From Candidatus Hydrogenedentota bacterium (GTDB taxonomy: Bacteria > Hydrogenedentota > Hydrogenedentia > Hydrogenedentales > JAGMZX01): DNA of 64,000 bases. Both the position numbers and the translations under genes were made by a program. Positions 27,527-61,518 of the stretch are shown here, in pieces; within the stretch, counting starts at the first letter, position 1, and each line of letters opens with the position of its first letter. The stretch lies in NCBI GenBank assembly GCA_029556545.1, contig JAKQEQ010000181.1, positions 62,001 through 126,000 on the forward strand, given 5' to 3'. Below the pieces are notes generated by a model. That model was not told the DNA's origin, did not search any database, and saw only the letters and a list, made by a program, of their open reading frames with translations.

Positions 27527-30500
27527 GTGAAAACCAAAACTCTTGCGCAAGGGATGCTTGTGGTGGCGTTGTTGCTTGCGGTCATGCCGGGGGCGGCGCG
27601 CGCACAATGTCCCGAAAACCAGATGGACAACGATCTCCTTCTGGGCACCATGGAACTGCTGCTGAGTCAGTTCCTGATCGACCCCGACACAGGAGAGAAC
27701 CTGTGGACGGGGGACATGGGCTCGACGCCCATCTGGACCAAGATACCGGGGCAGTTAGGGCCGGGCTTCCTCGGGGTCGATAACAACGGCAACGGCATCA
27801 ATGACGACGATCAACTGGACATGTTGGCGGCGATCATTGACGGCGATGATTCGGTGGTAGGCAACCTGAACCCCGCGGACGTGGCGGCGATTCGCGCGGC
27901 CTATGCCTCGAACGCCGCATACATCCAGACGGTGGAGGTAACGCTGAACGGCGTGCGTGTGACCGCGCTTGGCGGCCTCGTGGACATTACGGAATCGATC
28001 ACGACCGGTCAGACGAAGTGCGTCGACCTGCCGGTCATCGGCAACACGTGCTTTGATGTGCCGAGCTTGTGGCGGGTCAATGAGGCGGACCCGGACGACG
28101 CGCTGCTCCAGGAAGCCCATCCGTTCCTTGAGGACATGATGGTTCAAGTCGGCGCGGGCACCGTGACCCTCGGCGACCAGTCAGGCATCGACCATCTGCA
28201 GGGCTTCATGGGGCAAGTCATGCTTGCCGTGATCAAGTACATCCTGCCGTCGCTGCTGTCGGACCTGAAGAGCGCGCCGATGGACGCGCCGATGGACGCG
28301 GAGAAAGGCTATACGATTCCGTGCGGCGAAATCCCAAGTTTCGACGAAACCATTCAGGTGGACCCGGTGGGCGACGTCCGTATCCGCATCAGCAACACGA
28401 ACATTTGCGCGGCGTTGCAGGGTTTCATCAACAAGTTTGACTGTCCGCCCATGACGTGTATGAGCGCCCTGCTCTCAGCGGGCGGCAACTTGAACGGCGA
28501 CGGCTCGACCAACCTTGCCTCGTACAATGCGACCGGCACGCGCCAGGAGTGGCTCATGGCGGAGGACATTACGAACCCGCCGTTGCAAGTTGTGCAGCAG
28601 CCTCAGGACCACAGTTCCCTGGTGGGCCTGCCGCTTGAACTGAGCATCGTTTACGCGGAGGGATTGCCGGGCGGCCCGGTGCAGTACAAGTGGGAAATGA
28701 TCGACATCGAGGAATTCGATCCCATCGGCGGACCCGTCTCGACCGGCGCGACGTATTACGTTGAATACCCCTATGCGACCGCAAACGGGTACTATACCGT
28801 GACGATTTGTGACCCGCTCTGGACGCGTCAGTCGATGGCGGCGAACGTCTTTGTTCAGGACGTCGATTTCGCGATTTACGAACAGCCGCAGAGCGCCGTG
28901 GTCTATGAAAACAACGATCATACCTTCACCATCCGCGTTATTGGCGGCGCGCCGCCCGTCCCTACGTATCAGTGGTACGGCGGCACGGATCCCGGATCGC
29001 TTGCGCCGCTCGAGGGCAAGACGAGTCGTGACCTGCTTCTGGAGAACCTCCAGATTGGCCAGGATGGTTACTATCAGGTCTATGTCACCGGCAACGATGG
29101 TCTTGGCAAGGGCACTGTGGTGCTGCAAAGCAACATCGCGCAGTTGCTCGTCGTCGCGGGCGGCGAAGGCGAGGGCGAAGGCGAGGGTGAAATCGAGTTC
29201 TGCACGGTCCCGTTGGACGACCAGCAACCGGTCCCGCCGTCCAGTAGCGGCGCGAGCGGCACCGCGCACCTCCTGATGAACCCCGGACTCGGGGAGTTCC
29301 GTATCGAGGTCGAGCACACGGTCGGCAGTCCGACCGCGGCTGGCATTTACGCCGGCGCGCCGGGCGCGACGGGGCCGATGATCGTCAATTTCGGCAGCGA
29401 ACTGACCAGTCCTATAAGCTACGTGCTTTCGGGTCTTGACCTGTACTACCTGGATCAAACGGAAGATGCGTACATTCAGGTGGAAAGCGTGGGATACCCG
29501 ACGGGCGAGATTCGCGGTCAAGTCATTTGCGGCGGCGAAGGTGAGGGCGAAGGCGAAGGTGAGGGCGAAGGCGAAGGTGAGGGCGAAGGCGAAGGTGAGG
29601 GCGAAGGTGAAGGCGAAGGTGAAGGCGAAGGTGAAGGCGAAGGTGAAGGCGAGGGCGATCCCTGCGACCCGATTGTGTTTGCTGACCCGAACCTCGAGGC
29701 CGTGGTCCGCGCGGACCTCGGGATTCCGTCAGGCAACCTCGGACCGGCGGACGTGGCCGAGTATTATCGTCTCAACGGGCGCGAGGCGGGCATCACCAAC
29801 CTGGAGGGCATCGAATGCCTCACGGCGCTGAACTACGTCAATCTGTCGTTGAACTTTGGTCTTAGCGACATCAGCGGCTTGGCCGCCTTGAGCGCTCTCG
29901 AGGAACTGGACCTGTCCGTTTGTCCCATCAGCGACATCAGTCAGCTCGAAGGATTGACGAATCTGAATATTGTCCGGGTCATTGCGACGCAGGTCACGGA
30001 CTTCAGCGCGTTCGTGAATAATCCGGGCATTGGCGCCGGGGATATCATCTACGCGGAGGGACTCACGTTCACTCCGGAACTGTGCGCGCAGGTCGTCGAA
30101 TTGCGCGCCCGCGGCGTCACGGTAATTGCGGGAGACCCGGACCCCTGTGGCGGCGAAGGCGAGGGTGAGGGCGAGGGTGAGGGTGAGGGTGAAGGCGAGG
30201 GCGAAGGTGAAGGTGAAGGCGAGGGTGAAGGCGAGGGTGAAGGCGAAGGCGAAGGTGAAGGCGAGGGTGAAGGCGAAGGTGAAGGCGAAGGCGAGGGCGA
30301 TCCTTGCTTCAGCGAGTTCCATACCGCTGACCAGACCGAGGACAACATCATCGCGCTCACCGAGCTCTTGCGTGTTATCCAATTCTTCAACAGCGGCGGC
30401 TTCCACTGCGCTGACGATCCGGGTAGCACGGAAGACGGGTACGTGCCCGGCACGGGCGCAAACCAGACCTGCTGTCTGCACGACAGCGACTATGCGCCGC

Positions 30501-32451: not shown

Positions 32452-32570
32452 TCCGAGCGGTTTCGCGCAGGCGGCGCGTTGATGACGGCAAGTTCTGATA
32501 GTAACGTGGTTTTGCTGTATATATATCGTGATTACGAGCACGAAGGCGAATGGAGACTCGGGAGGGTTAC

Positions 32571-33314
32571 ATGGTTGACGCGGGCGTTGGGTCGGTACGG
32601 CGGTTTTACATCATCAGTTGCCACGTCCTCTGGCGCGAATTGTGCCATTTCGCCGCCGTGTCGAGGAACGTCTTCGAATTGAAGTTTCTCGAACAGGGAC
32701 TCCATAACACGCCGGACGTCCTGCGCACGTCGCTGCAAGCGGCCATCGACGAGACGCCGGACCGCTGCGAGGCGGTGTTGATCGGCTACGGGTTGTGCAG
32801 CAACGGCATTGTGGGCATTGTGGCGCGGGACAAGCCCCTTGTCGTGATGCGGGGCCACGATTGCATCACGTTTCTTCTCGGATCGAAGGATCGGTATCGC
32901 GAATATTTCGATGCCCACCCCGGCACCTACTGGTATAGCCCCGGCTGGATCGACACGCACACGCAGCCGGGACAGGAACGCTACGAGCGCCTGCGCCGCC
33001 AGTACGTCGAGATGTACGGCGAGGACAACGCCGAGTACCTCATGGAGACCGAGCAAGGCTGGTTCCAGAAGTACAACAACGCCGCCTACGTGGACTTGGG
33101 CTTCGGCGATTCGGAGGAGTACCAGCGATACACCCGTGCATGCGCCGAATGGCTGCAATGGAACTGCGACATGCTGCAGGGCGACCCGCTCCTCGTGGTC
33201 GACTTTCTCGAGGGCCGCTGGGATGAGGAGGACTTCCTCGTCGTCCCGCCGGGACACGAGATCATCGCGTCGCACGATGAACGCATCATCGCGGCACGGG
33301 CGTCTCGCCCGTGA
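32571..33314 (+). CDS. DUF1638-family protein with repeat-derived tail
   Basis: 247 residues from the ATG at 32571 (GGGAGGG 6 bases upstream). The family pattern is seen as IISCHVLWRELCHFAA, PDRCEAVLIGYGLCSNGIVG, VMRGHDCITFLLGSKDRY, HPGTYWYSPGWI and GDPLLVVDFLEGRW. DUF1638 proteins occur with methyltransferase and corrinoid genes in many anaerobes, but their activity is not settled. Conserved Cys, His and Asp suggest a metal or cofactor site. The last six residues, ARASRP, and the stop codon come from a copy of the ACGGGCG palindrome; the same six residues end the iron-sulfur protein at 34390-36048. Confidence 0.8.
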   Translation: MVDAGVGSVRRFYIISCHVLWRELCHFAAVSRNVFELKFLEQGLHNTPDVLRTSLQAAIDETPDRCEAVLIGYGLCSNGIVGIVARDKPLVVMRGHDCITFLLGSKDRYREYFDAHPGTYWYSPGWIDTHTQPGQERYERLRRQYVEMYGEDNAEYLMETEQGWFQKYNNAAYVDLGFGDSEEYQRYTRACAEWLQWNCDMLQGDPLLVVDFLEGRWDEEDFLVVPPGHEIIASHDERIIAARASRP

Positions 33315-33357
33315 TTGAATCCGCCTTCGGCGGACATGGGCAGGATGCCCATGCCAC
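33292..33357 (+). repeat. ACGGGCG/ATGGGCA two-hairpin repeat, copy 1
   Basis: First hairpin ACGGGCG-TCT-CGCCCGT with one mismatch; second hairpin CATGGGCAGGATGCCCATG. Between them lies a short extra palindrome (CCGCCTTCGGCGG). The repeat supplies the final codons and stop of the DUF1638 gene. Confidence 0.8.
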
Positions 33358-33390
33358 GTCGAAGGCGGCGCGGGCCGCGCTCGCAACCTG

Positions 33391-33399
33391 TGTTATAAT
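33391..33399 (+). promoter_or_regulatory. Extended -10 promoter for the DUF362/NapH pair
   Basis: TGTTATAAT gives TATAAT at 33394-33399 with the upstream TG of an extended -10. The -35 region is G/C-rich and unlike consensus. The leader to the ATG at 33461 is about 55 bases. Confidence 0.55.
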
Positions 33400-33460
33400 C
33401 CGGTGAATGCCCCGGCGGGCGCATATTTGGAGTCTAGCAACCGCGAGAGGAGTTGGAACG

Positions 33461-34393
33461 ATGTCATCGCTGACACGAAGAGACTTCTTGCATCAAACGG
33501 CGATTACAGCGGGCGCCCTGTCGATGGGCTGGGGCGCGTCGTTCGCTCAGGAAGCAGGGCCGGCGGATATGGCCATCGCCCGATGGGCTGGCGCAACAGG
33601 CGCCGAGGCGCCGCTTGCCGACATGGCCGTGAAACTGACCGAACAGGCCATTGCGGCGATCGGCGGGATAGGACGCTTCGTGCGCCGGGGCGACGTGGTC
33701 TGGGTCAAGCCAAACATTGCTTGGGACCGCACCCCCGAGCAGGCCGCGAACACGAACCCCGACGTGGTGAAGACGCTGGTGCGGTTGTGCCTCGAAGCAG
33801 GGGCGAAGACGGTCAAAGTGGGCGATAACCCTTGCGATCGCGCGGAAAGCACGTATGTGAAGAGCGGGATCGCGGCCGCGGCGCGTGAAGCCGGGGCGGA
33901 AGTCGAGTTTCTCGACCGATCCCGCTTCCGCACCGTCGCCGTCGGCGGCGACCGGCTCAAGGAAATACCCATCTACCCCGGTTTTCTTGATGCCGATCTC
34001 GTGATCAACGTTCCAGTAGCAAAACACCATCGCGCGACCACCGTTACCTTGTGCATGAAGAACTACATGGGCGTGGTCGAGGAACGTCGCAAGTTCCATC
34101 AGGACCTGCCCGCCACCATCCGCGATATCACGGCGTATATGAAGCCGCGGCTTTGCGTGCTCGACGCCTTGCGCGTGCTCACGGGCAACGGCCCGACGGG
34201 CGGCGACCTGGCCGATGTGAAGGCCGCGAACCTGATCGCCGCGGGCGTGGATATTGTCGCGCTCGACGCTTTCGGTTCGGAATTGCTCGGCCATAAGCCG
34301 GAGGATATCGGCACGGTGAAGGCCGGATTCGACGCCGGGCTCGGGCGGATGGACTACCGGAGTCTCGCCCTCAAGGAGTTGGAGGTCGTGTGA
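33461..34393 (+). CDS. Tat-exported DUF362 protein
   Basis: 310 residues from the ATG at 33461 (GGAG upstream). Tat signal LTRRDFLHQTAITAGALSMG. The body follows DUF362: GRFVRRGDVVWVKPNIAWDR, NPDVVKTLVRLCLEAGAKTV, DADLVINVPVAKHHRATTVT, CMKNYMGVVEERRKFHQDLP, and ALDAFGSELLGHKPED. DUF362 proteins often bear Fe-S clusters or sit beside ferredoxins; this one lacks the ferredoxin part and instead overlaps by 4 bp a membrane protein rich in Fe-S motifs. The two are probably one redox unit with the Tat-exported DUF362 subunit outside the membrane. Its electron donor or acceptor is unknown. Confidence 0.85.
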   Translation: MSSLTRRDFLHQTAITAGALSMGWGASFAQEAGPADMAIARWAGATGAEAPLADMAVKLTEQAIAAIGGIGRFVRRGDVVWVKPNIAWDRTPEQAANTNPDVVKTLVRLCLEAGAKTVKVGDNPCDRAESTYVKSGIAAAAREAGAEVEFLDRSRFRTVAVGGDRLKEIPIYPGFLDADLVINVPVAKHHRATTVTLCMKNYMGVVEERRKFHQDLPATIRDITAYMKPRLCVLDALRVLTGNGPTGGDLADVKAANLIAAGVDIVALDAFGSELLGHKPEDIGTVKAGFDAGLGRMDYRSLALKELEVV

Positions 34394-36048
34394 GGCTGAA
34401 GCGGCCGCGTTCGTGGGTGCAGTGGCTGCGGCGGCTGTGCCAGGCGCTGTTCCTGGCGCTTTTCTTGTGGTTCGTGCTGATCGCGCGTTTCCGCGCGAGC
34501 GAGGACGGGCCGGGTCTCATTCGCTTCTTCTTCGAACTGGACCCCCTCGTCGTGGTGGCGACGTTTCTTTCGACCCACACCCTTGTGCGCGGGGCTCTTC
34601 TCGCGCTTGCCGTGATCATCGCCACCATGGTGCTCGGGCGCGTCTTTTGCGGTTGGGTCTGCCCGCTCGGCGCGGTACACGCCCTCGCGAGCGCGTGCCG
34701 TCCGCGGCGCAAAGGCAGGAAAGACTTCGAGTCCCGGTCTCCGTGGCAGCGCGGCAAGTACTTCGCCCTCGTGGCGCTGCTGGTCATGGCGCTTTTCGGC
34801 GTGCAGTGGACGGGCATCTTTGACCCCATCCCGCTGCTCTACCGCAGCGTGGCCACCGCGGTCCTCCCCGCGACCCAATACGCGGTCCAGGAACCGGCCA
34901 CCGCAATCTACAAGGCCGACCCGAAAATCGGCGGCTTTCACCTCACGTCGATCTCAGAACCGGTTTACGAATTCTCGCGGGACGCGATATTCCGCGTCGA
35001 GCGCCAAAGCTTCCTCCAGAGCACGGGCATCGCGTTCCTGTTCATCGGGATTGTGGCGCTGAATTTCGTGCGCCCGCGCTTCTGGTGCCGCTATGTCTGC
35101 CCGCTGGGCGGCCTGCTCGGACTGATCGCGGGGCGGCCCGTGCTGCGCCTGCACAACGATGAGAGCGCGTGTACGAACTGCGGCAAGTGCAACCTGGCGT
35201 GCCCCGCCGCCGCGCAGCCGGATCAGCGCGGCAAATGGCTGCCCTCCGAGTGCTACGGCTGTTGGAACTGCGTCGCGGCCTGCGAGGGCCACGCCATCGC
35301 CTTCAAGTGGGAATCCCCGTTCCGCAAGCCCAACGCGGGCGCGGTGGACTTCTCGCGCCGCGCCACGCTTGCCGCAGGCGTCACCGGCGTCGCCTCGCTG
35401 CTGGCGCTGCGCCTGCCGCCCCCGGCCCGCAACCAGCAGCCGCTTCCCGCGCTGCTGATCCGCCCGCCGGGCGCGCGCGAGGAACGGGCGTTCCTGCAGC
35501 GGTGCATTCAGTGCGGCCTCTGCATGCGCGCGTGCCCGACGAATGGGTTGCAGCCCTGCGGGCTCGAAGCGGGCCTCGAAGCGCTGTGGACGCCGAAACT
35601 CGTGCCCAAGATCGGCTATTGCCAGTTCAATTGCGCGCTATGCGGCCAGGTCTGCCCGACGGAGGCGATCCAGCCGATGCCATTGGTCGAGAAGCAGACA
35701 CTCAAGATCGGCCTCGCCGTCTTCGACACGTCGCGTTGTCTGCCGCACAACTACGGGCGCGAGTGCATCGTTTGCGAGGAACACTGCCCGCTACCGAAGA
35801 AGGCGATCTACCTCATTAATAAAGACGTTTTGTTGCACGACGGCTCGACCAAGCAGATCAAGCAGCCGTTTGTCGATCCGGACCTGTGCATCGGCTGCGG
35901 CATATGCGAGTGGTCGTGCGTATACCGCGACCAGGCGGCCATCCGCGTCGTCGCCGCCAACGAAGCGCGAAATACCTACAACCAGCCCATCCTGCCGGAC
36001 TACGGGGGTATGGATAGGTATGCGGTGGCACGGGCGTCCCGCCCGTGA
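34390..36048 (+). CDS. NapH/RnfB-like polyferredoxin membrane protein with repeat-derived tail
   Basis: 552 residues from a GTG that overlaps the DUF362 stop (GTGTGA). Several membrane helices lie in the first 245 residues, with two NapH-type motifs, FCGWVCPLG (about 86-94) and WCRYVCPLG (about 232-240). Fe-S cysteine groups follow: CTNCGKCNLAC (about 261), CYGCWNCVAAC (288), CIQCGLCMRAC (372), CALCGQVC (415), CIVCEEHC (459) and CIGCGICEWSC (500), enough for about five or six [4Fe-4S] clusters. A further helix may lie at 325-343. The protein would move electrons across or along the inner membrane with DUF362. The last residues ARASRP and the stop derive from a palindromic repeat. Confidence 0.85.
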   Translation: MRLKRPRSWVQWLRRLCQALFLALFLWFVLIARFRASEDGPGLIRFFFELDPLVVVATFLSTHTLVRGALLALAVIIATMVLGRVFCGWVCPLGAVHALASACRPRRKGRKDFESRSPWQRGKYFALVALLVMALFGVQWTGIFDPIPLLYRSVATAVLPATQYAVQEPATAIYKADPKIGGFHLTSISEPVYEFSRDAIFRVERQSFLQSTGIAFLFIGIVALNFVRPRFWCRYVCPLGGLLGLIAGRPVLRLHNDESACTNCGKCNLACPAAAQPDQRGKWLPSECYGCWNCVAACEGHAIAFKWESPFRKPNAGAVDFSRRATLAAGVTGVASLLALRLPPPARNQQPLPALLIRPPGAREERAFLQRCIQCGLCMRACPTNGLQPCGLEAGLEALWTPKLVPKIGYCQFNCALCGQVCPTEAIQPMPLVEKQTLKIGLAVFDTSRCLPHNYGRECIVCEEHCPLPKKAIYLINKDVLLHDGSTKQIKQPFVDPDLCIGCGICEWSCVYRDQAAIRVVAANEARNTYNQPILPDYGGMDRYAVARASRP

Positions 36049-36078
36049 TTGAGGAACATGGGCAAGATGCCCATGCCA
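36027..36078 (+). repeat. ACGGGCG/ATGGGCA two-hairpin repeat, copy 2
   Basis: Hairpins ACGGGCGTCCCGCCCGT and CATGGGCAAGATGCCCATG are joined by GATTGAGGAA. It ends the iron-sulfur gene with the same ARASRP-stop as copy 1. Confidence 0.85.
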
Positions 36079-36081
36079 CTC

Positions 36082-43519: not shown

Positions 43520-43551
43520 GGCCCACGGGCGGAACGCCCGGGCCACGGCAG
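43520..43551 (-). repeat. ACGGGCG-family repeat, reversed first hairpin
   Basis: On the minus strand GTGGCCCGGGCG, TTCC, GCCCGTGGGCC matches the first hairpin of the ACGGGCG repeat with a few changes. It lies in the intergenic gap upstream of the MshEN gene. Confidence 0.55.
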
Positions 43552-43957: not shown

Positions 43958-46900
43958 TCAGGAGACGGGTTCGTCGTCCAAGGCCGCTTCCGCGGTGGAT
44001 ACGGCCTCCCGCAGGGCTTGCAGCTTATCCGCCAGCGCCGGGGCATGCTTCTTGATTGCGGCGTCCAAGGCGTCAAGAACCTTGGCGTCCCACACGTACC
44101 AGCCGGCCTGCCCGCCCTCAGGGGCGTATCGCCGCAGCACTACCGCACCGTCCACCACGATTTCGGGTACATTCTCGCTGATCAGGCGCACGGCGAGCGT
44201 TGTCTCCTCCTCAACCGTCGATGTGGTTCCCGGTATCCTCCAGGCGAGATCAAGCCCTTCGAAGATCGCATTGTACACTTCCCCCGCCGCATCGAGAACC
44301 GGTTCCAGCGCGTCGGCGTCGTCGCCGGCGCGCGCGCGCAACGCCGCCAGTTCCCTGGCGCGGTCCGAGTCCGGGTGGCGCAGTTTGTCCGCTTCCGCGA
44401 CGTTGCCCTTGCTCAGCAACGCTAGCCAGCCCGCCGCTACAGCCGTCGGCTGGTTGCGGTCCAGCGCGGCGGCGCGTTCGGGTGTTTCGGCCGGGGGACT
44501 GCCAAACGGGCCGACGACGCCGATTTCGTCCATGCGGGCTTCGTAATTGTCCCGAAGGACCGCCAATCGGTCAGCAAGTTCCGGCGTGCTCTCGACCGCG
44601 CGGAGCAGGAGTCGGTGGACCACTTCGCCGTTCCAGACGTGCCAGCCCGCAGTGGCCGGGTCGTCGCTTGCGACCTGCCGAATTTCGAGGATCGTTTCGA
44701 GGGCAAGATCCGGCTGTTTTGCGCTCTTGAAAGCCACCAGGACATTGCCGACGCCGTCCGTTTCGGTGACTTCGCCTACGTCGGGCTGCAATTCCAGAGT
44801 TTCAAACGCGAGTTGCCCGATGCGGGCGAGATATTGGGTGTAATCCTGGAGGTCCTCTTTGTCCCGAGTCTGGAGAAACCGCCATTTCTTGCCCAAGACC
44901 GAATCAGGATGGGCAAGCCGCATAGCCGCGTCGATATCGCTGCCCCGCGTGTGGCGGAGGAATAGCGCGGCACATTCCGCAGGCGAGGCCATGGCCAGCG
45001 CGCGATCCCGTTCTTCGGCCTGCTCCACCATGGCAAGGAGCCGCGCGTTCAGTTCCGCGCGCATCGCAGCGAGTTGATCCGCCAAATCGGGTGAGGCGGC
45101 CTCGGCGGCGGCGACAAAGGTATTCATCCCATCCTCAAAGAGATACCAGGCAACGCCCGGTTTGTCCGGAAGCCCCGCCTGCTTCATGATCATGACCCCT
45201 TCGTGCGCGAAATCGCTTTTCTTCGCACTCTTGAAGGTCACGGGAATCTTAACCGTCTCGCCGTCAACGACTTCCTCGCCGTACGACGCCTCGATGGCGA
45301 GCGCCTCCTGTACTGCTTGCATTGAGCTTCCCAGGTACTCGGCAAACAATTCAAATCGCTCGCGTTGCTGCTCTTCGATTCTACGGAGACTCCGGCCGTT
45401 TTCCGATTCGGGATGGTATAGGGCGAGCAACCCGTTCATATCGCCCGATAACACGTAGTTCACGGCCGCGCGCGCCACAGCAAGCGGGGTTGACTGGTCC
45501 GCCGCCGGTGATATCTCTTGGGCGTTGGAGGCGATCAACACCAGCGCAAAACAGACACAAACCATCACATATCGCCACAAAACGCCATATTGCAACAATG
45601 CGCGTCTTTTCCGCAGCAGCAGAAGGGCAAAGGCGCAGCATGCCAGAATCGCGGCGTTGCCGAAGGCGGCGGCGCGGCGCGAGTCCTGCCGTGGCGGGGC
45701 ATCGCGGGTTTCGAGGGTTGCGAAAGTTCCGGCGGGCACGAGCAGGCCGGTAACGGTGAAGTCGTCCACGCCCGCGAGGATATCGCTGCTCTTTGCCGTG
45801 CCGCGATGGCCGCGGTCTCCGCCGCCGGGATCGCTCTCGCAGGAGTTCAGGCGCGCCCTCACCCAATAATGGTAATACTTGAACGTGATTTGGGTTTGCG
45901 GCTTGCTGAAACAGCCGCCGGGGTCGACGGTGGTGACGTCGGGGGCCGCGGCGGTCGTATCCTGGAAGGTCGTATCGGTAATCCAACCGGAAACATCCGT
46001 GGCGGCGGCGCTGTCCTCCGTTGTGCCCTGGAGCACCTGGTACTGCACGCCGGTTCCCGCGACGGCGTCCCACGTGATGACGACATGCGCGGCCACCGTA
46101 CCGTCGGATGCGTTCACGTTTGAAGGCGCGGCAAGCGGCGCACAGACATAGGTTCCGGTGCGCGTGGCCGTGACGCCGCCGATGACATCGACGCTGATGT
46201 CCGCCGGTGTCGTCCAGGCCTCCACGTCAAGAAACGAAACCGTGTGCGGGCCGAGGCTCAATCCCGCCGCCGTATCGCCGCTGTTTCGCCACGCGCCGCC
46301 GTCGACGCGCCATTTCGCGCCCGCGGCGCGCGCGGCCTGGGGCTCGATGGTGACGCGAATGCCGCCGACGAGGAGTTCGGGTATGGTAAAGGATCGCCAC
46401 TCGGACGCCGCGAAGTACTGCTGGCCAACGGTTTCGCCGATAGACCAATAGTACACTTCGACGATCCCCAATACGGTTTGTATCTGGTTCCAGTCCTCTC
46501 TTGCGATAGCGATGCTGCCGCCGGTTACGGCCGAAACGGCCACACTCTGCGGCGTGGCGCTCGTGGCAAAAGCGATGGCGAGCCCCGTGCATACGCCCGA
46601 GGTCGTCCAGGCGAACGTGGCAGGCAGGCTAATTCCCGCGCCCGCCACCGGTTGGGTCAGCGTAGCGGCGCAGTCCTCCTCCCCTTCTCCTTCTCCTTCT
46701 CCTTCCCCTTCTCCTTCCCCTTCTCCTTCGCCCTCGCCTTCGGCCCCGCTAACGGTGAGGCAGATGTCATCGACGAAGAAGCTTGCACCCGCCGGCGTCC
46801 CCGACGTGGAACTCAAGAGTGCGATGGTGTGGGTCTGGCCGTCGGCGAATGGGCTGACGTCGAGAATGACTTCCTGGTACGTGTCGCCATAGGTCATATC

Positions 46901-49339: not shown

Positions 49340-49423
49340 GGCTTCCTTTCCTTTCGGTTCTATGGACGCATGATGCCATGCCGCAGCCGGGCGGCGCAGG
49401 GCTGTTGAAAGATAGAGCCATCG

Positions 49424-49500
49424 ATGGACAGCGATGAACACCGATGAAATCCGGATGATAAGCAAGAGCATATCGGTGTTCATCCGTGTTCATCGGTGGT
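49424..49500. repeat. Inverted repeat beside the GxxExxY gene
   Basis: ATGAACACCGAT (49434-49445) and ATCGGTGTTCAT (49472-49483) are exact reverse complements, 26 bases apart, with more partial pairing outside (CCGTGTTCATCGGTGG). Short repeats of this 'ATCGGTGTTCATCGGTGG' kind are found near GxxExxY genes in other genomes. Confidence 0.75.
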
Positions 49501-49587
49501 TCCGGTGCGTCGGTCCACGCGGCCTTGTCTTATCAAGCCATTTCGCCGGTTTGGCCGCACGCTTCATCAGCGCTATACTTCTCGCTC

Positions 49588-50214: not shown

Positions 50215-50290
50215 TTGGGGTGACTCGCGGAACTTGGTTCGACTAACATGAGGCGAAGGCGTGGCAGGGGCGGATTGCTCATGAGGGAAG

Positions 50291-50346
50291 AACATGGGCA
50301 AGATGCCCATGCCACGAGGAAGAGCATGGGCAGGATGCCCATGCCA
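50291..50346 (+). repeat. ATGGGCA-type second hairpins of the ACGGGCG repeat, two tandem copies
   Basis: CATGGGCAAGATGCCCATG and CATGGGCAGGATGCCCATG, each followed by CCACG, lie in tandem 19 bp before the URO-D-like start. The first half (ACGGGCG hairpin) is absent, so the two hairpins can move or persist separately. Confidence 0.8.
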
Positions 50347-50364
50347 CGCGGATGGAACTGCACC

Positions 50365-60684: not shown

Positions 60685-61518
60685 ATGGCCGCGTTTTCCT
60701 CGATCGCTCCCTTTTATGACGCGCTCGCCGACAAGGCGGGGCGGCTCGAACGGGAAGGGCCGGTCTTGCGGCGCGTGCTCGACGCGGCGGCCGGGCGGCG
60801 GGTCCTGGACCTTGCCTGCGGCACGGGGCTGCATGCGCTTTTCCTCGCTGAGGCGGGGGCGGCGGTCACGGCGATCGATGTGAGCGCGGCCATGATCGAT
60901 TACGCTTGCCGCGTGCGGCCACACCCGAAGATAACGTATCGCGTGCGCGATATGCGCGATGCCGAGGGCGGCCCTTACGACCTCGCGTTGTGTCTCGGAA
61001 ACTCGCTATCCCTTCTGGCCGACGAAGACCACCTAAAGGCGGTATTCGCTCGATTGCGCCTGGTGCTCGCACCGGGCGGTCTGTTCCTCGCGCACGTGCT
61101 GAACTACGCCGCCGCGGTCGCGCAGGAGGCGCGACATCGCGTAGAGCGCGCTGTCGTCGAGGACATGCCGGTCGTCGCTGTGAAGAACCTGGTTCCTGAC
61201 GGCGCGCACACGTTTCTGAGCCTGAGTTTCTTTTTCGAGACGCGTGAGGAAGCGGAGGAAGACCTTCGGTCGGGCACCCTCTCCCCGAGGGAGAGGGTTG
61301 GGGTGAGGGTTGAAGACGACGGGCGGGACGCCCGTGCCCCGTGGACGGGGATTGCCGAGACGGCCGTGCTGCGTAACTGGAGCGTCGAAGACCTCACGCG
61401 CGCGGCGCGGCGATACGGTCTTGTTGCCCGCGATATTTTCGGCGCGTTTGATGGCCGTTCTTACGAACCGGAGACTTCGCCGGACCTCTTGGTATTGTTC
61501 GCCGCCGAGACGCGGTGA
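60685..61518 (+). CDS. SAM-dependent methyltransferase with in-frame repeat insert
   Basis: 277 residues. The class I Rossmann fold is seen as VLDLACGTGLHALFLAEAGA (motif I, about 34-53), VTAIDVSAAMIDYACRV and YDLALCLGNSLSLLADEDHL. It methylates an unknown acceptor with S-adenosylmethionine in the cytoplasm. It begins 4 bp after nrfA and is probably cotranscribed, although a link to nitrite reduction is not obvious. Residues about 196-217 (SGTLSPRERVGVRVEDDGRD) are coded by two palindromic repeats (61277-61313 and 61319-61335) and do not fit the fold; they probably form a surface loop. Without them it would be close to 250 residues, the usual size. Confidence 0.85.
   Translation: MAAFSSIAPFYDALADKAGRLEREGPVLRRVLDAAAGRRVLDLACGTGLHALFLAEAGAAVTAIDVSAAMIDYACRVRPHPKITYRVRDMRDAEGGPYDLALCLGNSLSLLADEDHLKAVFARLRLVLAPGGLFLAHVLNYAAAVAQEARHRVERAVVEDMPVVAVKNLVPDGAHTFLSLSFFFETREEAEEDLRSGTLSPRERVGVRVEDDGRDARAPWTGIAETAVLRNWSVEDLTRAARRYGLVARDIFGAFDGRSYEPETSPDLLVLFAAETR
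61277..61313 (+). repeat. CCCTCTCCC-family repeat inside the methyltransferase gene
   Basis: CCCTCTCCC (61277-61285) and GGGAGAGGG (61289-61297) form a nine-base stem with loop CGA, followed by TTGGGGTGAGGGT. It is the mirror of the copy in the beta-helix gene, and is in frame. Confidence 0.9.
61319..61335 (-). repeat. ACGGGCG-family hairpin inside the methyltransferase gene
   Basis: ACGGGCG-GGA-CGCCCGT is the exact reverse complement of the ACGGGCG-TCC-CGCCCGT hairpin at 36027-36078. It follows the CCCTCTCCC copy directly and codes DDGRDARAP in frame. Confidence 0.85.

Follow-up and report, generated by a model that had tools for sequence, protein, structure and literature searches.

Two proteins encoded in the window, the 64,000-nucleotide stretch of a Candidatus Hydrogenedentota genome analyzed here, share an end of about seven residues. 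The proteins are unrelated and owe this end to copies of a REP/REPIN element into which the two genes run. The REPIN very probably comes from a RAYT-spread GTAG/GTGG REP family, can land at or just before a stop codon, and then supplies the tail together with a TGA stop. A puzzling tail common to the proteins is explained in this way without a shared function.

Two gene ends and the repeat unit

The two genes encode a DUF1638 protein and a membrane polyferredoxin. The features of the window are as follows.

32550–33314, plus strand: DUF1638 protein gene (PF07796, E 3e-42), with a REP at its end
33291–33313, plus strand: C-type REP (GCGG head, 1 mismatch), forming the final codons AARASRP of the DUF1638 protein
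33314–33334, no strand: 21-nt spacer inside the DUF1638-end doublet, holding a further small hairpin (TCCGCCTTCGGCGGA)
33335–33357, minus strand: T-type REP, the inverted partner at the DUF1638 end
34390–36048, plus strand: membrane polyferredoxin gene (Fer4_5 and Fer4 domains, NapH/NapG-like), with a REP at its end
36025–36047, plus strand: perfect C-type REP, forming the final codons VARASRP of the polyferredoxin
36057–36079, minus strand: perfect T-type REP, the inverted partner of the polyferredoxin-end REP after a 9-nt spacer
43524–43546, minus strand: lone degenerate REP between genes, 2 mismatches
50261–50347, mixed strands: REP trimer (plus and decayed, minus, minus), 61 nt past one stop and 17 nt short of the following gene's start
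61318–61340, minus strand: lone REP within a methyltransferase ORF (60685–61518), 2 mismatches

The codons at 33291–33314 are GCG GCA CGG GCG TCT CGC CCG TGA (A-ARASRP*), and the DUF1638 ORF ends ...DERIIA-ARASRP-TGA. Those at 36025–36048 are GTG GCA CGG GCG TCC CGC CCG TGA (V-ARASRP*), and the polyferredoxin ORF ends ...MDRYA-VARASRP-TGA. In both genes, the TGA consists of the last TG of the C-type REP and the next A. The first-pass annotation had reported ARASRP and TGA at both ends in one frame of one repeat, which can be read directly from the codons. The shared end is real, but it is longer than the ARASRP given there: seven residues, (V/A)ARASRP, starting from the GTGG or GCGG head. The repeat had also been said to extend beyond each stop, and a second hairpin is indeed present at 33335–33357 and 36057–36079. 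What had been described as two hairpins, however, is one REP in opposite orientations, C-type and T-type, around a short spacer. The repeat unit is a 23-nt REP, GTGGCAYGGGCRTCYYGCCCRTG, starting at the GTGG/GCGG head; the C-type is CGGGCGTC..GCCCG and the T-type is TGGGCATC..GCCCA.

The second hairpin had 8 matches in the window and none in 100 shuffles (each palindrome counted on both strands), and the first had 6 matches against 0.15 expected. These numbers are far above chance. Three further copies listed by the first-pass annotation exist, with corrections. The copy placed at 43520–43551 is a lone REP at 43524–43546. At 50291–50346 the second hairpin does occur twice, but the whole is a trimer whose first REP (50261–50283, 4 mismatches) is decayed. 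The copy at 61319–61335 is reversed and inside the methyltransferase ORF as stated, but it spans 61318–61340. The window also contains other repeats. Units of 6, 12, and 18 nt such as GGCGAAGGTGAGGGCGAAGGC form long runs at 29150–29720, 30099–30349 and, inverted, 46669–46752, and would encode Gly–Glu repeats in one frame. Another inverted repeat, with arms ATCGGTGTTCATCCGTGTTCATCGGTGG, is at 49415–49502; its core had one further near-match only in the 964 kb examined.

Genome-wide (6.1 Mb in 195 contigs for the window's own genome), with up to 3 mismatches allowed, the second hairpin plus its CCAC end had 139 matches and the first plus its GTGG end had 169, two sets that overlap each other. 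About 100 stretches were fetched around copies and, with the window, gave 964 kb for analysis. REPs were counted with the 23-position pattern GTGGCAYGGGCRTCNNGCCCRTG. This yielded 259 REP units, most of them in inverted doublets; no REP with 3 or fewer mismatches was found in the reversed-sequence control. Most of the 209 good copies had a GTGG head, with C at position 2 in 11 and A at position 3 in 10. Among 108 adjacent pairs (≤120 nt apart), 89 were inverted with both GTGG heads facing out. Spacers were 3–21 nt long, with 9, 6, 8, 21, and 3 nt preferred. The 66 fully typed doublets comprised 62 C + T, 4 C + C, and no T + T pairs. A target-site motif search found C just outside the REP head at 82 of 118 ends and nothing further; this C is probably part of the element. 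No Rfam family matched the repeat above its gathering score, and there were weak sub-threshold matches only. Contigs C10 and C137 of genome G000 are each exactly 83,601 bases long.

As expected of a REP, the unit is short and palindromic, has an unpaired GTAG-like head on one side, and is present in high copy number, chiefly outside genes. The inverted pairs have a short spacer and can form hairpins, as expected of a REPIN or BIME. We identify the repeat as a REP doublet (REPIN/BIME); such doublets fold as long hairpins of −48.5 and −37.9 kcal/mol (z −4.7 to −6.9). The first-pass annotation had suggested that these hairpins might act as transcription terminators, and strong stems after genes are what intrinsic terminators would provide. 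However, an intrinsic terminator is a G+C-rich hairpin followed by a T-run. Neither window element has a T-run, and a terminator scan found no terminator-like site on either. The terminator reading is highly improbable and was rejected.

Placement after genes and the built-in stop

Placement statistics were obtained with our own codon-based gene caller on the REP-bearing stretches (964 kb, 137 elements). Of these elements, 56 overlapped a stop codon or lay no more than 20 nt from one, against 6.2 (sd 2.6) for random placement. Elements were in excess between co-oriented genes (56 vs 5.9 random), in convergent intergenic regions (11 vs 1.0), and in divergent ones (14 vs 3.0), whereas only 33 were inside genes against 117 at random. 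Four were on start codons (3.7 random), and two were at stretch ends. The bias to 3' ends was strong, with 53% of element distances at 20 nt or less against 14% expected; that to 5' ends was much weaker (17% vs 11%). A tendency toward gene ends had been predicted, together with a tabulation of copies against stop codons, and the tabulation on the 964 kb found it. It applies to 3' ends, but the stop codon itself is not preferred: by a narrower definition, 13% of the elements not buried in genes overlapped a stop, against 27% at random there. The favored site is the first 15 nt or so after the stop, and most distances to the upstream stop were 1–15 nt.

If the elements were selected regulators, this position bias would reflect regulatory use and not the sites where insertions are tolerated; REPs no more than about 15 nt from a stop would reduce translation or shield the 3' ends of mRNAs. 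The short distances and the strong folding of the doublets agree with such use. In addition, ribosome stalling has been reported for E. coli REPs that lie within 15 nt of a stop, as cited in PMC12306157. Insertion tolerance, however, would give the same position bias, and we consider selected regulators unlikely. A mobile element tolerated after genes is the best-supported reading. By analogy with E. coli, the elements may affect translation or the stability of mRNA.

The base next to the C-type REP was A in 72 of 115 cases, giving GTGA, and the T-type REP was usually followed by T and therefore seldom offers a TGA stop. This difference is why the gene tails are ARASRP. The GTGG head lets the reading frame run through the REP, so that the stop is the far-end TGA and a 7-residue tail is added. 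Nine genes enter a C-type REP in frame 1 and terminate 24 nt later, eight with ARASR and one with APASR. They are the two window genes, a gene for a radical-SAM-like protein (ARASRS), one gene with the end APASRP, and five others whose products end in ARASRP. The rare GTAG-headed copies provide their TAG as the stop of four further genes. Of the other stop-sharing elements, one has the TAG of a gene ending on its first base and three have genes ending elsewhere within them. Other REP-derived protein ends were GTGVPPVM, WHGHLARD, or a direct TAG via the GTAG head. The first-pass annotation held that the element can supply the stop and last codons; the nine tailed genes bear this out, as do the 17 of 137 elements that have bases in common with a stop codon (5.3 at random).

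Among stop-overlapping copies, the C-type was in 15:1 excess, largely because the A after a C-type REP supplies the stop. For gene-proximal REPs just after a stop, 26 were C-type and 14 were T-type (p 0.08), which is not a convincing orientation preference. At loci L163, L166, and L137, three genes encode products with near-identical ends (FN[AT]GAYxxCDxGEDGFCPxA), and each uses the TAG of a GTAG-headed REP as its stop; they are apparently a gene family that was copied along with its REP.

Annotators should treat with caution any predicted protein that has an ARASRP tail or a stretch resembling WHGRPARD or HGQDAHAT, as these are translated REPs. A literature search for HGQDARAT found no paper.

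Homologues and RAYT genes

C-termini were compared with those of homologues, as the first-pass annotation had proposed for the two window proteins. The names RlmN, NuoF-type, and DegT-type used here were assigned by reading the sequences. The ARASRP tail was absent from homologues of the DUF1638 protein, the polyferredoxin, RlmN, and the DegT-type aminotransferase. DUF1638 orthologues from related genomes keep the core to about SHDERII and then have a tail differing between genomes, and polyferredoxin orthologues from related genomes normally end in PYGG or PY. Both window REP copies were absent from the congener orthologues. The RlmN and DegT-type orthologues in the congener, G001, likewise lacked the tail and the REP copies. 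These absences argue against the elements being selected regulators. ARASRP as a conserved protein motif was rejected, as homologues lack it.

The NuoF-type protein is an exception: its tail is shared, in the same position, by the window's species and G001. The gene end has 31 nt identical in both species, comprising the last pre-REP codons, the C-type REP, and the stop; the 60 coding bases just upstream differ at about 1 in 5. At this site (L142, 12014–12067; L437 in the congener), the partner REP is decayed. The NuoF-type REP copy was probably inherited from the common ancestor. REP-supplied tails would be mostly neutral. There is a small chance that some have been adopted and that the NuoF-type REP is a constrained C-terminus and stop signal.

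ARASRP could also be a functional C-terminal tag, a sorting or degradation signal common to the carrier proteins. It is present, exactly or with one residue changed, in nine proteins, and two species have identical NuoF-type tails and REP DNA despite decay of the second REP. However, nothing links the host proteins to one another, frame 1 of the REP fully accounts for the tail, and REP-derived ends of other kinds exist. Moreover, four of the five congener orthologues examined lack the tail. A functional tag is exceedingly improbable.

Five Y1_Tnp genes were found in the window's own genome, and none of the five has this REP nearby. When four of them were compared with NCBIfam, one passed the REP-associated tyrosine transposase model, and two matched the RAYT model below cut-off and better than IS200. 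With 96% completeness and 195 contigs, the assembly may lack a REP-flanked RAYT. In G001 (locus L365), arrays of the same REP, in perfect or near-perfect copies, flank a RAYT gene, with eight REPs over both sides and the nearest 17 nt away. This gene is similar to the C9 Y1_Tnp gene of the window's own genome (41% identity). A RAYT flanked by the same REPs, the arrangement that defines a REP-RAYT system, is thus present in the lineage (G001), but was not found in the fragmented assembly of the window's own genome. This RAYT type occurred in 12 of 17 REP-rich genomes and 14 of 43 others (Fisher p 0.01, kinship ignored). Related RAYT genes in the order accompany REPs with the same stem and GGAG (G029, G011) or GGGG (G032) heads. 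In G010 and G059 of the same order, a REP sub-variant, GTGGCACGGGCTTCCAGCCCGTG, is dominant, with a 27–28 nt spacer. At L375 of G052, a RAYT is flanked by a CTTCCAG stem similar to the GTGGCACGGGCTTCCAGCCCGTG sub-variant.

The comparisons are consistent with the following model. A GTAG/GTGG-headed REP family would be spread by an IS200/IS605-related (Y1, HUH) RAYT transposase; we infer that a RAYT of the G001 type transposes the element. Copies would persist chiefly outside genes, most often just past a stop codon. Where an element landed on the original stop codon or a few bases upstream, the gene would enter the C-type REP in frame 1, which would be translated V-A-R-A-S-R-P and ended by TGA. 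The host protein would retain its conserved core and gain or exchange a short variable tail.

The same 23-mer was found in contigs labeled Opitutaceae, Phycisphaerales, Acidobacteria, Armatimonadetes, Hydrogenedentes, and others, and REP heads vary with the neighboring RAYT inside one order. These lineages therefore offer material on RAYT–REP matching.

Comparison with known REP families

GT(A/G)G-headed REPs, their RAYTs, and inverted doublets are already published (PMC2817692, PMC3116915), as are the placement bias of GTAG-type REPs and their donation of stop codons to genes (PMC3733652). GTGG heads are described there as accepted variants of GTAG REPs (PMC3733652, PMC2817692). The family found here is therefore of a known kind. 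No description of a GTGG head leading to a far-end TGA and a fixed 7-residue tail was found in the available excerpts of the GTAG-REP literature; that outcome is directly given by the GTGG-headed REP sequence.

According to Di Nocera et al. 2013 (PMC3733652), GTAG-type REPs have the same tagged palindrome of 20–40 nt, high copy number, and doublets. They also share the placement just after genes, stop-donating ends, many in-gene copies, and RAYT association. GTAG-20 of Opitutus terrae, with mostly GTGG heads, is notably close by its description. The cases described there obtain a TAG from the head, whereas the mostly GTGG heads here lead to the far-end TGA and the 7-residue tail. Rickettsia palindromic elements (RPE), as described via PMC3733652, are likewise palindromic repeats translated within unrelated proteins. 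By that description they are in-gene insertions, whereas gene ends and intergenic space dominate here.

REPINs and RAYTs, as described by Bertels and Rainey 2011 (PMC3116915) and Nunvar et al. 2010 (PMC2817692), show the same inverted REP doublet with a short-spacer hairpin, and the same arrangement of a RAYT flanked by the same REPs with a GT(A/G)G head. They are known mainly from gammaproteobacteria, and the doublet here is almost always C-type plus T-type. Both the repeat and its behavior are thus of known kinds, observed in this case in a bacterium that has not been cultured.
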